Shown piece after piece: positions 11,765-19,114 of a DNA stretch of 32,701 nt. The position numbers and the translations under genes were made by a program. The first letter of the stretch is position 1. Each line of letters starts with the position of its first letter. The DNA is from Phycisphaerae bacterium (GTDB lineage Bacteria; Planctomycetota; Phycisphaerae; Sedimentisphaerales; SM23-30). Below the pieces are notes generated by a model that had not been told where the DNA came from, ran no database searches, and saw only the letters and a list, made by a program, of their open reading frames with translations. The stretch covers positions 1-32,701 of the forward strand of contig JAEIOG010000059.1 in the NCBI GenBank assembly GCA_016342495.1. Direction: 5' to 3'.

Positions 11765-13219
11765 TTATGATTTATCCCAGAATGTACCTTCTGTCTGGAG
11801 TTGCTTTTGGAAGTTTTCCAGGTCGGTCAATAGTTCTTTAACGATTTCTGGATGTTCTGCGGCCCGGTCGATTCTTTCGCTTAGGTCTTGTTCGACCTGG
11901 AAGAGTAGCGGTTTTTCGCGTGAAGCGGTGAAGCCATAGTTGTCGCCGGTTTGCGAGCCGATTCGGATATGCAGTTTCCATGGACCTTTGCGAATGGCTG
12001 ATGGTTTATTGTCGTGATAGCTATAGAAAAAGCGGAAAGGCTGGAATTTTTCTTTTGGTTTGTCAGACATTAGCAGTGGGCCAATGTTGCAGCCATCAAT
12101 TGTGCGGTCGGTGGGAAGATTAATACCGGTGATATTGAAAATGGTTGGGAGAATATCTAAGGTGCTGGCGGGAATTTGCAGGTTTCTATTTGCGGGGATT
12201 TTTCCGGGCCAACAGAAGATACCGGGAACTCGATGGCCACCTTCCCAGGTTGAGCCTTTGCCGTCACGGAAAGGAGTGGCATAGCCAACGTGCATGCGAG
12301 CTTCGCCATATTTGCTTTTTTCGGTATTTCTAAATCGAATCCAGGGGCCATTGTCAGATGAGAAAATAATTAAGGTATTGTCGGTGATGCCGCAATCTTC
12401 TAAAGTTTTTCTGACTTTGCCAACAGAATCATCAATTTCTTCCATGACATCGCCAAGCAAGCCACGCCTTGACCTCCCTTTGAAACTTTCGCTGGCATGA
12501 ATGCCAAGATGGGGCATGTTGTGAGCAATATAGGCGAAAAATGGTTTGTCTTTGTTGGCTTTAATGAAATCTACCGCAGCGTTTGCATATCGCCCGGTAA
12601 GTGATTCGCAAGCTTTGGTATTTGAAGGGAGATTTTTGGTGATGATGCTATAGCCATCGACGGGTTCATGGCCAGTGGGGTCTTTTTGTATGAGCATGGC
12701 ATTTGAATAGTCATGGGAGACATTGGTGCCGATCCAGGTGTCAAATCCGTTGGCCAGTGGCAGGCTTTTGGAGTCAAAGCTATTGTTTTTATTTGGCGTT
12801 CCCAGATGCCATTTGCCAAACATTCCGGTGGCATAACCTTTTGATTTCAGGCCTTTTGCCAGGGTGATTTCTTTTTCGTGGATGTATTTTTTTGATTCTG
12901 GGCCAATTACCCAGCTACCCAGGCCTGATCGCCCCGGATAGCGTCCGGTCAAAAGAGAATATCGAGAAGCGCTGCAGGCGGCGGTAGTTACGTAAAACTG
13001 GGAGAAACTGGTGCCATCCTGTTTTAATTTCGAGATATTGGGTGTTCGGATAACGGGATTGCCATTATGTTCGTAGTCTCCGTAGCCGCTGTCATCAAGG
13101 AAAAAAATGACGATATTGGGTAATTGTTGTTTTTGCTCTTGCCCAAAAGAAAAATTTCTGGAAGTAAATAGCCCTGCGGTCGTCATTCCGGCCAATTTCA
13201 AAAAGTTGCGTCGATTCAT
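11765..13219 (-). CDS. Exported sulfatase (arylsulfatase family)
   Basis: Predicted to hydrolyse sulfate esters, probably on a sulfated polysaccharide, outside the cytoplasm. The 484-residue protein opens with a twin-arginine signal (N-R-R-N-F-L-K, hydrophobic to about 20). The sulfatase core shows the metal pair D42-D43 in FFLDDSGYGDY, and the modification site C82-S-A-S-R86, where C82 must become formylglycine; most relatives have CxPSR, but CxAxR is an accepted variant. A later SSDNGPW block supplies the other metal ligands. AGAGGG precedes the ATG by six bases. It stands alone with its own promoter (13278-13306) and terminator. No maturation enzyme is encoded nearby. The exact substrate is unknown. 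Confidence 0.93.
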   Translation of the reverse strand: MNRRNFLKLAGMTTAGLFTSRNFSFGQEQKQQLPNIVIFFLDDSGYGDYEHNGNPVIRTPNISKLKQDGTSFSQFYVTTAACSASRYSLLTGRYPGRSGLGSWVIGPESKKYIHEKEITLAKGLKSKGYATGMFGKWHLGTPNKNNSFDSKSLPLANGFDTWIGTNVSHDYSNAMLIQKDPTGHEPVDGYSIITKNLPSNTKACESLTGRYANAAVDFIKANKDKPFFAYIAHNMPHLGIHASESFKGRSRRGLLGDVMEEIDDSVGKVRKTLEDCGITDNTLIIFSSDNGPWIRFRNTEKSKYGEARMHVGYATPFRDGKGSTWEGGHRVPGIFCWPGKIPANRNLQIPASTLDILPTIFNITGINLPTDRTIDGCNIGPLLMSDKPKEKFQPFRFFYSYHDNKPSAIRKGPWKLHIRIGSQTGDNYGFTASREKPLLFQVEQDLSERIDRAAEHPEIVKELLTDLENFQKQLQTEGTFWDKS

Positions 13220-13562: not shown

Positions 13563-13597
13563 AAAAAAATAACCCTGAAAGATAAATCCAGAGTTAT
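13563..13597 (-). terminator. Terminator of accD
   Basis: On the minus strand ATAACTCTG pairs with CAGGGTTAT (one T-G) and is followed by seven T residues, about 30 bases after the accD stop. Confidence 0.85.
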
Positions 13598-13625: not shown

Positions 13626-14462
13626 TTACTTACCGCAATAATCGATGACACGGGCTATTTCGCTGCGCAGGTCTTTTCGGGCTACAATCATATCGACAAA
13701 ACCATGTTCCATAAGAAATTCGGCCCGTTGGAATCCTTCTGGCAGTTCGACTTTAATGGTATTCCAGATGGTTCTGGGCCCGGCAAAGCCAATCATGGCA
13801 TTGGGTTCGGCGATAATGACATCGCCAAGCATGGCAAAACTAGCGGTTACGCCACCAGTTGTCGGATCGCAAAGTACAGAGATGAAGAGTCCGTCGGCAT
13901 CATCAAGTTTAGCTAATGCGGCTGAGGTTTTAGCCATCTGCATGAGAGAAAGGGCACCTTCCTGCATTCGAGCACCGCCAGAACAACTGGCAATAACTAA
14001 AGGTAAGCCAGTTTCCAGAGCTAATTCGGCTGCTCTGGTGATTTTTTCACCCACGACAGATCCCATTGAGGCGCCAATAAAACCGAAATCCATAGCGGCC
14101 AAAATTACTGGTCGGCCCTTGATAAAGCCTCTTCCGACAATGACGGCTTCTTTTAATCCGGTTTTTTTCTTGGCGGCAGCGATGCGGTCTGGGTATGTTT
14201 TGCTGTCTACAAAACCCAGAGGATTTACAGTTTGGAATTCGGTCATAAGCTCTTCGAAAGTGCCTTCGTCGCATAAATGATTAATGCGTTCCTGGGCACT
14301 GATACGGAAATGATGCTGACATTCAGGACAAACACCCTGATTTGCTTTTACGTTTTTAGTAAAGAGGGTGTTGCCACAAGAAGGGCATTGCTGCCATAGT
14401 CCTTCGGGCATTTCCAGTCTTTTTTGTAAAGAAAAGCCATCCCATGATGCTTTTGCGCACAT
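13626..14462 (-). CDS. accD: Acetyl-CoA carboxylase carboxyltransferase subunit beta
   Basis: Beta half of the carboxyltransferase that moves carboxyl from biotin to acetyl-CoA, making malonyl-CoA for fatty acid synthesis; it works in the cytoplasm with AccA, which is not in this window. Numbered from the ATG at 14462 (278 residues; AAGGA seven bases upstream; an in-frame TTG two codons earlier is less likely): four-cysteine zinc ribbon C26, C29, C45, C48; carboxyltransferase domain with the GGAR motif at 162-165 in CSGGARMQEG; and FAGPRTI near 230. Length and order match the family. It begins 30 bases after the histidine-phosphatase-like gene, so the two are probably one transcript starting at the promoter near 15163-15192. 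Confidence 0.96.
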   Translation of the reverse strand: MCAKASWDGFSLQKRLEMPEGLWQQCPSCGNTLFTKNVKANQGVCPECQHHFRISAQERINHLCDEGTFEELMTEFQTVNPLGFVDSKTYPDRIAAAKKKTGLKEAVIVGRGFIKGRPVILAAMDFGFIGASMGSVVGEKITRAAELALETGLPLVIASCSGGARMQEGALSLMQMAKTSAALAKLDDADGLFISVLCDPTTGGVTASFAMLGDVIIAEPNAMIGFAGPRTIWNTIKVELPEGFQRAEFLMEHGFVDMIVARKDLRSEIARVIDYCGK

Positions 14463-14492
14463 ATACAAATCCTTATGTTAAAAGGGTTTATT

Positions 14493-15131
14493 TTATTCTT
14501 GAGTTACAACCACTGTTCCGGTCGGAACGTTTTTATTGCCATTGTCAGTAAGGTTGAAAACAGTCATTTCAGCTTCCTGTTCGATAACATTCCACAGTTG
14601 ATTTAAGGGTTTGCCAGTTAAAATACATTCAATCAGAGCCGCAGCAATCGGAGCGGCAACGATGGAGATTGTTTTTCCAGTATTTTTACGGTTTATCAGT
14701 TTTAGGGCATCTTGCATGCGGTCTAAAGCGTTTTCGATAGCTTCGCCTTCGGGTGGACAGATGGAAGTCGGATCGCTTTGCCACATTCTAAAAGCTTTGC
14801 CATATCGCTGTTTGATGTCGGCAATGCGTAAACCTTGCCAAAGTCCGCAATCCAACTCGTGCATATCGGTAATGGTTTTTAGTTTTACCTGACATATGTT
14901 GGCCAGAAATTCGGCTGTCGCGCCGGAAGATTCGTTTCCGCTGCTGTATATTTTTTTTATATTAGCTTCGGTCAGATGTTTTGCCAATAGACGCAGTGGT
15001 TCTTTGCCCTCGGTAGACAGTGGCAAAGGCAATGTCCCCTGTAATCGTCTGTCGTCCGGGTCGGCTTTATTTTCTGAGTTTTCATTGTCCCAGGCTGTAC
15101 GTCCAGCTCTGACCAGTATTAGTTTTTCCAT
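14493..15131 (-). CDS. Histidine-phosphatase-fold protein lacking catalytic residues (probable pseudoenzyme)
   Basis: The 212-residue protein clearly has the phosphoglycerate mutase-like (branch 1 histidine phosphatase) layout: LVRxGxTxW at the N-terminus, PLSTEGKEPLRLLAKHL, IYSSxxxSSGATAEFLA, HELDCGLWQG (91-100), PPEGEAIENALDRM (126-139) and the C-terminal strand-helix. But the active site is gone: the RHG motif reads R8-A9-G10, so the phospho-accepting histidine is alanine; the S-x-L-x-R-A arginine is S68; and the second histidine of VSHG is A160 (VAAP). Only R8 and E92 remain. It should not be a phosphatase by the usual mechanism; a binding or regulatory role is possible. It lies directly upstream of accD on the same strand. 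The frame is intact and length normal, so it is not an obvious decaying gene. Confidence 0.82.
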   Translation of the reverse strand: MEKLILVRAGRTAWDNENSENKADPDDRRLQGTLPLPLSTEGKEPLRLLAKHLTEANIKKIYSSGNESSGATAEFLANICQVKLKTITDMHELDCGLWQGLRIADIKQRYGKAFRMWQSDPTSICPPEGEAIENALDRMQDALKLINRKNTGKTISIVAAPIAAALIECILTGKPLNQLWNVIEQEAEMTVFNLTDNGNKNVPTGTVVVTQE

Positions 15132-15162
15132 AGATTATAATTTACTCCAATGGTAGGGGGTA

Positions 15163-15347: not shown

Positions 15348-16052
15348 TTATAGAATATTTTCCATGTTGGATAGCCCTAAAGGTTCATTGCAGAAAAATG
15401 GTTCGGCGTATTGGCAGTAGGTTCGATTGCCAAAATAACGGTTGATGTCGCCGATATGCTGCAAAATCCAGCCTTTTTTATCCGGGTCTGGCTGATTGAG
15501 CCAGAATTGGCTTTGGTAAGCTTCGATAGCATGGCATTTTTGCTGCCAGAATTTGCTGATGTCGATGCTGAAGGTTGGTTTGGCATCAACTCTTAAATGG
15601 CTGGCATAATAATAGAAGATTTTTTCGGGGAACCATGGGTCAAATTTCATGTCAGTTTTGGTCAGTTTGGCGGCGAAGCGGGCATCTTCGATGAGCTGGG
15701 CGGCATGGACATGGTCGGGATGGGCATCAGGTCGATAGGTGATAAAGAGCCACCGGGGTTGGAATTGGCGAATGACTTCGGCGACTTTGGTTCGAGATTC
15801 CAGGTCGGCTTGCAGATAGCGATTGGGCAGGTCGACGCAAACTCTTTCGGTTATGCCGAGTCGTTCGGCGGCGAGAGTTTTTTCTTTGGCGCGAATTTCG
15901 ATACTGCCAGCAGGTGTTGGCTCGCCATCGGTTAAGTCGGCAATGATAACTTCCCAGCCATCGCTGAGGAATTTTAAGATTGTGCCACCCATAGCGATTT
16001 CAGCATCGTCAGGATGAGGCGAGAAAACTAATATTCTTTTTTGATTTTGCAT
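15348..16052 (-). CDS. PIG-L family deacetylase (BshB1-like)
   Basis: Zinc-dependent de-N-acetylase of 234 residues, acting on an N-acetylglucosamine-containing small molecule or lipid. Zinc ligands are visible in SPHPDDAE (H13, D16; D15 is the likely base) and in RPDAHPDH (H111 or H114). The overall pattern, including DLTDGEPTPAG, AAERLGI, the D-A-F-A-A-L region, PWFPEKIFYYY and AIEAYQSQF, is close to BshB1, which makes glucosaminyl-malate for bacillithiol, but no bshA or bshC is adjacent, so I keep the general name. AAGGAAA precedes the ATG by about nine bases. The GT4 gene lies upstream on the same strand, 258 bases away; that gap holds two repeats, so linkage is uncertain. Confidence 0.85.
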   Translation of the reverse strand: MQNQKRILVFSPHPDDAEIAMGGTILKFLSDGWEVIIADLTDGEPTPAGSIEIRAKEKTLAAERLGITERVCVDLPNRYLQADLESRTKVAEVIRQFQPRWLFITYRPDAHPDHVHAAQLIEDARFAAKLTKTDMKFDPWFPEKIFYYYASHLRVDAKPTFSIDISKFWQQKCHAIEAYQSQFWLNQPDPDKKGWILQHIGDINRYFGNRTYCQYAEPFFCNEPLGLSNMENIL

Positions 16053-16310: not shown

Positions 16311-17540
16311 TTATCTCATAATCGAATTATATACTCGTTGGATTCTTTCTACCATAAGTTTATGGTCGAATTCTTTTATGCAGAAGGCTTTGCCTTGTTG
16401 TCCGAGTTTTATTCTTAATTGTTCATCAGCTAATAGTTTTTCCTGGGCTTGAACTAATCCTTCAATATCTTTGGCTTTGACGAGATAGCCGGTCTGGTCG
16501 TTTTTTATTACTTCTTTTGCGCCATCGACGTCGAAGCTGATAGCTGGCTTGCCACAGAGTAGTGATTGGGGCAATGTTCGGGCAAGTCCTTCACGCAGGG
16601 ATGGGTGCACCAGCATATCGCAAGCCTGGAGGATCGGGCCAACCCGTTGGGGCGGGACTAATCCGGCAAAGCGGAAACGGTCGGTCAGGCTGGCATTGGC
16701 GATTTGTTTTTTAAGGTCGTCCTGTAAGATGCCATCGCCTACGAACAGCCAGATGGCTTGGGGGAATTTGCTTGCCAGCTTTGTTGCTGATCGGATTACA
16801 TATTCATGGCCTTTCAGTTCAAACAGTCTGGCGACGGTGGCAATTACCAGTGCGTCTTGGGGGATATTGAATTCATCCCGGATGGCCTGCTTTTCTGTGT
16901 TAGATAATTCATGAGTATAATTTTCGGTTTCCATACCGGAAAAAACTTTATGATATTTTTCTGGTGTGCCAATGCCAGCGGCCAAAGCCTGGTCGGTCAT
17001 AGCCTGGGCGACGGAAATAAAAGCATCGGTCTGGTCGGCTACATGTTTTTCGGCGGCGATATATAATTTATTTTTAAGATTTGATTGGAACGGATGAAAA
17101 GCAAGGCCATGGATGGTGTGGACGATTCGAGGGCGGCCACAGGTACGCAGGTGAGCTTCATTGACTTTAGCGGTAATCGAACAACAGGCATCGTTGGCTA
17201 TGTGTTTGCGAACATGCTCGGCAGCAGACCGGCCCAGTATGCCGGCTTTGGCAGAATGGGTATGGACAATGTCAGGGGCAAGCTCGGCCAAAACTTTTTT
17301 CAATTGCTTATAAGCGAAATGGTCTTTGATTGGATGAACCGCTCGAATTAATGGTTCGATTTCGATGATTTTATAGCCACCAGCTTTGGCCCGGTCGACT
17401 AATTGTCCTTCGGGGCCGGCTGTAGGGCCGGTTATCAAAGTAACCTCGTGGCCATCGGCATGTTGACCTTCGCAGGTTAAAATGGTGTTCTCCTGGGCAC
17501 CGCCTAAGATTAATCTGGTTATTATATGCACGATCTTCAT
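16311..17540 (-). CDS. Glycosyltransferase family 4 protein
   Basis: Cytoplasmic GT-B fold enzyme of 409 residues that transfers a sugar from a nucleotide sugar, probably in surface polysaccharide synthesis. The N-terminal half has IITRLILGGAQENT and DIVHTHSAKAGILGR; the C-terminal half has ATVARLFELKGHEYVI, FVGDG and HPSLREGL followed by the family E-x7-E region, where the second acidic residue is Q325 (first is E317), a variant also common in this branch. Between HTHSAKAG and IVHTIHG there are roughly 25 more residues than usual, including a C-C pair. No Shine-Dalgarno is evident before the ATG. The PIG-L gene lies downstream on the same strand. Donor and acceptor are unknown. Confidence 0.9.
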   Translation of the reverse strand: MKIVHIITRLILGGAQENTILTCEGQHADGHEVTLITGPTAGPEGQLVDRAKAGGYKIIEIEPLIRAVHPIKDHFAYKQLKKVLAELAPDIVHTHSAKAGILGRSAAEHVRKHIANDACCSITAKVNEAHLRTCGRPRIVHTIHGLAFHPFQSNLKNKLYIAAEKHVADQTDAFISVAQAMTDQALAAGIGTPEKYHKVFSGMETENYTHELSNTEKQAIRDEFNIPQDALVIATVARLFELKGHEYVIRSATKLASKFPQAIWLFVGDGILQDDLKKQIANASLTDRFRFAGLVPPQRVGPILQACDMLVHPSLREGLARTLPQSLLCGKPAISFDVDGAKEVIKNDQTGYLVKAKDIEGLVQAQEKLLADEQLRIKLGQQGKAFCIKEFDHKLMVERIQRVYNSIMR

Positions 17541-17660: not shown

Positions 17661-17767
17661 GATTATATCTAATTAGTTGATATAAGTGGTTTGCTATCAA
17701 TATGTTGTGCGGATGCGAATATGTATTAAGGTTGAATTTAGGGCTTTGGGTGTGTAAAGGACAAGTT

Positions 17768-19114
17768 ATGGCAAAAATGAAGATTAAAAAACTATGGATT
17801 ATTTTGTCAGTTGTATTGCTGGTGTTGATTTTTAGCGGGGGATTGATGTGGCATTATTGGCGGATGGATGCTTCGCCAATTGTTGATGATTATACAGTTG
17901 AGGATTTATATAAAGTTCCAGATGATTGCGAAGCGAGTTTTGCATTGCTGGAAAAGTTAAGTTTTAAAAGCGGTTCACGGGTTTTGTATGATATTAACAC
18001 TTTTGAGAAATATTGTTCGCCTGATGGCATGCGCTGGCAAGATGAGAAGAAATATAAGCAAGATAATACTCTTTCTGTTGCTGCTACACCTGAACTTGGT
18101 TTGAGTGAAGAAGATGCTTTGGTTTTCGAGTTGGCTAGCCTAAAAATACAAAAAGCACCACTTGCTTATGCTGAACATAAGAAATTTTTTATGAAGCATG
18201 CAGACAGGTTTGATCAGGCATGGGAAAATATCCAAAAAGTCTGGGATGTTTTTTTGCAATTAAATGAATATGAAGAAATTGCGGATTTAAGCGGTCTCAA
18301 AATAGATGAAACCAGGGATTATTTGGCTGGCATGAGAGGGATAGTACAGTTGGCAAGTATTCATAGCTATTATTTGTGGAGTCAGGGAAACCAGCATGAG
18401 GCATTAAAGATCCAACAGATTTGTAATAGTGTTGTTAAAAAGTCGCTGCCAGCTGCAAGGGTGATGATTTTAAGATTAGTTTTGAATGGTATGATAAGAG
18501 AAACGCAAATGATGGGATATTATTTTTGTAATGATAAAGAATGCAGCGTAGATGTTTTGCAAGAGCTGAAGGAAAACACAGTTTCTTTCAATGAAAATGA
18601 ATTGTCGATACATAATTCATTGATTGCGGAATATCTGCAATTTAAGGAAACTCTGGAAGGGGAAGGCTATCGTAAAACCTGGGAGGAAATCGGTGGGGCC
18701 TGTAAGCCTAATTCGTCAAAAAGGCTTTATCGTTCGCAGATTTTTGCGGAAGATAAAGATATGATTAGGGGAGTCTGGTCAGCTGACTGGATGAATTGTT
18801 TTGATGTTTTTGAAGCTGATAAGTCCCATAAATTAAGCAAAACTTACAAGGCTTATAATCCTGTGGGCAGTAGATTGATTTACATATTAATGCCACAGTT
18901 TGACCGAGTGGGTTTTCTATTTGAGCGTATGGATGATTGCAATGAAGCTTTGCGGATAATGACCGAAGCCAGATTAAACCCTGATTATGATATTCAAGAA
19001 GCTTTGAAAGAAATGGATCTTGAAATTGATTATGACAACAAATGCTTAAAAGGCAAAGAAAGCAGATATGATGGGGTTACTATTCCATTTGATGCAGAAG
19101 TGTTTGGAGGATAG
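17768..19114 (+). CDS. Membrane-anchored alpha-helical protein of unknown function
   Basis: This 448-residue protein begins at the ATG at 17768 (AAAGGA seven bases upstream); an open frame extends 22 codons further but without signals. One N-terminal membrane helix (about 8-32) is followed by a W-rich junction (MWHYWRM) and a long, mostly helical, charged domain that probably faces the periplasm. Towards the end, YNPVGSRLIYILMPQFDRV followed by a helix resembles a segment I associate with uncharacterised planctomycete proteins containing an N-P-x-G-R-hydrophobic block, but I cannot name the family. There are no catalytic motifs. It is followed after 41 bases by a second membrane-anchored gene, so the pair is likely an operon. 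Confidence 0.75.
   Translation: MAKMKIKKLWIILSVVLLVLIFSGGLMWHYWRMDASPIVDDYTVEDLYKVPDDCEASFALLEKLSFKSGSRVLYDINTFEKYCSPDGMRWQDEKKYKQDNTLSVAATPELGLSEEDALVFELASLKIQKAPLAYAEHKKFFMKHADRFDQAWENIQKVWDVFLQLNEYEEIADLSGLKIDETRDYLAGMRGIVQLASIHSYYLWSQGNQHEALKIQQICNSVVKKSLPAARVMILRLVLNGMIRETQMMGYYFCNDKECSVDVLQELKENTVSFNENELSIHNSLIAEYLQFKETLEGEGYRKTWEEIGGACKPNSSKRLYRSQIFAEDKDMIRGVWSADWMNCFDVFEADKSHKLSKTYKAYNPVGSRLIYILMPQFDRVGFLFERMDDCNEALRIMTEARLNPDYDIQEALKEMDLEIDYDNKCLKGKESRYDGVTIPFDAEVFGG

Follow-up and report, generated by a model that had tools for sequence, protein, structure and literature searches.

PspA of Hydrogenobacter thermophilus (PDB 4ij5/4ij6), a metal-independent phosphoserine phosphatase, was the best match in both sequence and fold to the protein described here, a pseudo-histidine-phosphatase (HP) of 212 amino acids. 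HP is encoded at positions 14493–15131 on the reverse strand of the window, the whole 32,701-nucleotide stretch of Phycisphaerae bacterium DNA that was analysed. The phmmer E-value between the two proteins was 2e-18, and the Foldseek E-value was 2e-17 with TM scores of 0.80–0.82. Both proteins possess the lid and the GLW(Q/E)G and GE motifs, whereas the histidine of RHG, the second arginine, and the second histidine, all present in PspA, are missing in HP. The score of HP against the PspA model NF045917 (NCBIfam) was 95.1 bits, below the cut-off of 350. CobC (α-ribazole phosphatase) and PhoE of branch 1 also share the fold and structural motifs with HP but have the catalytic residues that it lacks, and the CobC model TIGR03162 gave 79.2 bits, below its cut-off of 162.9. 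Planctomycete CobC-like paralogues are located in cobalamin operons and, unlike HP, have intact RHG and HGG motifs.

In Bacillus subtilis, YqhY (Asp23 family), encoded in the accBC-yqhY operon, genetically controls ACCase (PMC5437119). Like HP, YqhY is not itself part of ACC but is conserved next to an acc gene; unlike HP, it has an unrelated fold and lies beside accBC instead of accD, and a role of this kind for HP is putative. Pseudophosphatases of other folds include the receptor PTPRU, which has a phosphatase fold without catalysis (PMC7320164). It differs from HP in its eukaryotic PTP fold and has no homology to it.

The HP gene and its surroundings

The HP gene started with ATG and was an intact open reading frame, as the original prediction had claimed. 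The Pfam profile PF00300 (His_Phos_1) matched residues 4–200, covering the whole domain (E-value 7e-32; 111 bits against a cut-off of 21.7). AlphaFold2, run on HP alone with 35 homologues, yielded a confident model (pLDDT 91, pTM 0.88) with an α/β phosphoglycerate-mutase-like fold, and the closest solved structures found by Foldseek were all histidine phosphatases, PspA being the first. The domain match and the predicted fold agreed with the histidine-phosphatase layout originally read from the sequence, and HP can be confidently assigned, on predicted fold and homology, to branch 1 of the histidine phosphatase superfamily. Alignment with canonical members placed A9 at the nucleophilic histidine site, where RHG of the canonical enzymes is RAG in HP, S68 at the second arginine site, and A160 at the second histidine site. 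Three of the five core catalytic residues are thus replaced, in agreement with the earlier claim, and R8 and E92 are kept. R29, W98, P127, G129, E130, and R138 are also retained in the HP of the window.

Directly downstream of HP on the same strand lies accD (13626–14462, reverse strand), the gene for the acetyl-CoA carboxylase carboxyltransferase β subunit, identified by its score of 386 bits with TIGR00515, whose cut-off is 317, and by its Zn-ribbon and carboxyltransferase domains. Its open reading frame as listed runs on to a TTG at 14468, but translation probably begins at the ATG at 14462, which has an AAGGA ribosome-binding site 7 nt upstream (14470–14474, reverse strand). With this start, the gap of 30 bases previously noted between HP and accD holds. 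A terminator-like hairpin followed by a T run, found by consensus match only, is located just 3′ of accD (13569–13597, reverse strand), suggesting that the HP-accD unit ends there. In contrast, the TATAAT sequence (15134–15139, reverse strand) that had been put forward as the promoter of HP is not credible as drawn: only 2 nt separate it from the ATG, which would put a sigma-70 start inside the reading frame. The consensus promoter scan called no site at this position, and the 8 sites that it found are to be compared with a chance expectation of 6.4 ± 2.7.

Upstream of HP is a gene for a PIG-L family deacetylase (15348–16052, reverse strand), also found 5′ of HP in several genomes of the window's family. 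It is preceded by a gene for a group 1 glycosyltransferase (16311–17540, reverse strand), which is kept further upstream in that family. The window also encodes a 470-residue protein (17702–19114, forward strand) that probably has a membrane segment at its N-terminus and that no Pfam profile matched above its cut-off, and a sulfatase with a twin-arginine signal and a CSASR maturation motif (11765–13219, reverse strand).

Catalytic residues and gene neighbours of HP homologues

HP orthologues were identified in seven genomes of the window's family, with identities of about 40–53%. In all seven, RA or RS replaces RHG, and IYSSGNESS or a close variant replaces the arginine region; the second histidine was absent in all six full-length orthologues. 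The gene order was glycosyltransferase-(PIG-L)-HP-accD, accD being the next gene at each of the six loci with enough flanking sequence. The motif losses and the accD neighbourhood are conserved in these relatives; orthologues that keep the catalytic motifs away from accD, which the original prediction had taken as a sign of simple decay, were not found in the family. One genome of the family (G011) has accD without HP, and its glycosyltransferase gene immediately precedes accD. In the rest of the order, HP was seen only in G146, whose copy is 91% identical to that of G001; as the bin has 5% contamination, contamination or recent transfer is likely.

A contig scan with the HP of the window as the sole query gave no matches, and a profile of the window's family detected clear relatives throughout both the class and the phylum. 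The survey covers homologues above the profile thresholds, many of them in draft genomes, where absence is weak evidence, and the phylum assignment of loci relies on named-genome matches. Among 172 non-redundant homologue loci, 146 were linked to accD, rpe, or pgk and 26 were unlinked; one unlinked locus cut by a contig end (L009) was left out, giving 25 comparators. Inactivity was judged from motifs and linkage from BLAST of neighbours, and the two labels were assigned independently. The nucleophilic histidine was present in none of the 146 linked homologues and in all 25 unlinked ones, and the same held for the second arginine (0/146 versus 25/25). The second catalytic histidine was found in all 25 unlinked homologues and in 6 of the 146 linked ones, all from family f24 (L140, L170, L181, L184, L185, and L186). 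These six proteins lack the nucleophile and the second arginine, and their second histidine may be a trace of the order of loss.

The usual planctomycete gene order was pgk-rpe-HP-accD. A downstream accD on the strand of HP was present at 122 of the 146 linked loci, rpe was upstream at 114, and pgk at 62; in these counts, made with single BLAST references in flanks of 1.5–3 kb, a missing neighbour may reflect a contig end, a short flank, or a gene missed or lying just beyond. The rpe and pgk genes were always on the strand of HP and never opposite. The claim that an inactive phosphatase has been conserved in tandem with accD was strongly supported, and the pattern, which recurs in the 146 linked homologues, is far beyond chance. 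We found no published description of it for Planctomycetes in the open-access literature searched. In an independent scan of named GTDB genomes, all 26 planctomycete loci, one of which (L251) is titled only "bacterium", were inactive and located at accD or rpe. All 13 matches in Chloroflexota and other phyla were canonical and without an adjacent accD, an absence that holds for the single short pattern scanned. One of these canonical matches had an accD-like frame 1.4 kb away.

Several variants of the order were observed. In family f9 (L049, L061, L128, L129, L131, L133, and L134), HP lies between pgk and the gene for class I fructose-bisphosphate aldolase (fba) and not beside accD. At L060 and L245, a gene of about 458 residues, whose N-terminus resembles glycosidase family 4, is inserted 3′ of HP and before accD, which at L245 is found 1.4 kb further on. 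HP-accD fusions were absent among the surveyed loci, and a 362-residue open frame at L158 (2162–3247) reads as rpe joined to HP, representing either a fusion or a frameshift or sequencing artefact. In several clades, accD and rpe are adjacent with no HP between them.

Single origin and conserved positions of the inactive proteins

In a tree of 74 rows, the inactive proteins all fell on the same side of a branch (SH-aLRT 99). The same split was obtained without the catalytic columns (83/90, and in 86% of bootstrap trees). The inactive set thus has a single origin on the tree, which fits one loss of catalysis. The several clades in which rpe and accD have no HP between them read as losses, in a tree that is unrooted and does not give the direction.

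The dN/dS of HP in 13 close pairs was 0.01–0.14, near that of accD in the same pairs (0.02–0.09), which points to a working protein under purifying selection. The emptied catalytic sites vary: P, A, C, S, T, or W occurs at position 9, A, P, S, or L at 68, and R, G, S, A, or P at 160. Meanwhile, R29, G96, W98, G100, P121, P127, G129, E130, and R138 were conserved at 96–100% across the inactive set, and some lid positions, Q116 and P126 among them, showed higher conservation than their counterparts in the canonical comparators. This drift of the catalytic sites beside a near-invariant set argues against a replacement catalytic set. As judged from its sequence, HP is a conserved pseudoenzyme, that is, an enzyme homologue whose catalytic residues are gone and which is under purifying selection, and we infer that it has no enzymatic activity.

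Candidate partners of HP

As no invariant catalytic set has replaced the old one, these data are best explained by a binding role, and HP probably works by binding a partner instead of by chemistry. Our leading, still tentative, proposal is that an ancient, Planctomycetota-wide family with a dead HP fold has become fixed in the pgk-rpe-HP-accD operon and acts by binding the carboxyltransferase. Its ancestor, a relative of the PspA/CobC/PhoE branch, would have lost phosphoenzyme chemistry once, giving up the nucleophilic histidine and the second arginine and then the second histidine, while keeping the fold and lid (helix 103–119 and the P-P-x-G-E loop). The dead protein would then have become fixed in this central-carbon operon. 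Co-produced with AccD, HP would bind AccD or AccA-AccD and tune the assembly or activity of the carboxyltransferase, possibly matched to sugar-phosphate flux. In favour of AccD, the HP-accD pair survives without rpe and pgk in several families including that of the window; against it, the linkage to rpe and pgk is about as durable as that to accD. Comparison of AccD from HP-bearing and HP-lacking genomes revealed no clear sequence signature of HP, and the clades with adjacent accD and rpe suggest that HP is dispensable to AccD there. The suggestion that HP is a regulator or partner of carboxyltransferase is plausible from the accD link, while the specificity for AccD is weakened by the equal tie to rpe and pgk and by the missing AccD signature.

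The same pseudoenzyme might instead have Rpe and/or Pgk as its partner, with accD merely coming next in an old operon. The frequent upstream rpe and pgk, the 23 loci where HP occurs with rpe or pgk and accD was not in the fetched flank, the pgk-HP-fba order of one family, and the rpe-HP reading frame of L158 would all fit this explanation. However, HP-accD is kept with rpe and pgk gone or unrecognised in f117, f118, f13, f20, f114, some f10 loci, and the window's family, and in the window's own genome pgk is on a different contig and has no rpe next to it. We consider Rpe or Pgk a rather unlikely partner; AccD is preferred because the window's family keeps accD alone and because accessory proteins encoded together with acc genes, such as YqhY, are known to control ACCase.

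Somewhat less likely still, HP may serve another target, such as a metabolite, a subunit of another enzyme, or an RNA or stress factor, with the operon providing co-expression only. The linkage divided between accD and rpe/pgk, the lack of AccD co-variation with the presence of HP, and the clades that manage without HP are consistent with such a target. Nevertheless, every inactive homologue with room for neighbours was linked, and no pseudo-type copy was found outside the neighbourhood, which favours a local partner. It appears improbable that HP remains catalytic through a different chemistry or a nucleophile that has moved. HP does retain R8, E92, and the lid in part, and S64-G65-N66-E67-S68, invariant in the window's family, might form a new site; but SGNES is limited to that one family, positions 8, 9, 68, and 160 vary freely, and across the phylum the His/Arg set has no polar substitute on the pocket side. 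Decay of a normal phosphatase in this genome alone, which could be imagined from HP being the only His_Phos_1 gene detected in the window's 5.4-Mb draft genome (G000), was refuted by the motif loss shared with full-length orthologues of the family and the phylum, the single origin, and a dN/dS far below 1.

Other roles and histories were also considered. HP as the phosphoglycerate mutase for the neighbouring glycolytic genes was ruled out, as it lacks the histidine. PF01676 is the superfamily of metalloenzymes that includes cofactor-independent phosphoglycerate mutases, and PF01676 genes are present elsewhere in the window's genome. Replacement of a missing AccA was ruled out by the presence of accA on another contig. 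There was no support for lateral acquisition of accD by the window's family, although accD was placed ambiguously among class relatives.

At least one complete-genome isolate, Planctomycetes bacterium Pan216, carries HP, and a transposon-essentiality data set is available for Planctopirus limnophila (PMC10632474); together these make HP directly testable. A domain match alone is liable to label HP genes "histidine phosphatase", which would be misleading. As a phylum-wide pseudoenzyme whose catalysis was recognisably lost in one event and whose neighbours are fixed, HP offers a rare clean case for the function of dead enzymes. It is conceivable, though doubtful, that this dead protein is an ACC control subunit of Planctomycetota's own, which would couple fatty acid synthesis, at its first committed step, to sugar-phosphate metabolism by binding AccD or AccA-AccD and would have been lost only in some clades. 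If HP does act on AccD, it would represent a new way of controlling fatty acid synthesis in bacteria, here in a phylum whose membranes and division are unusual.
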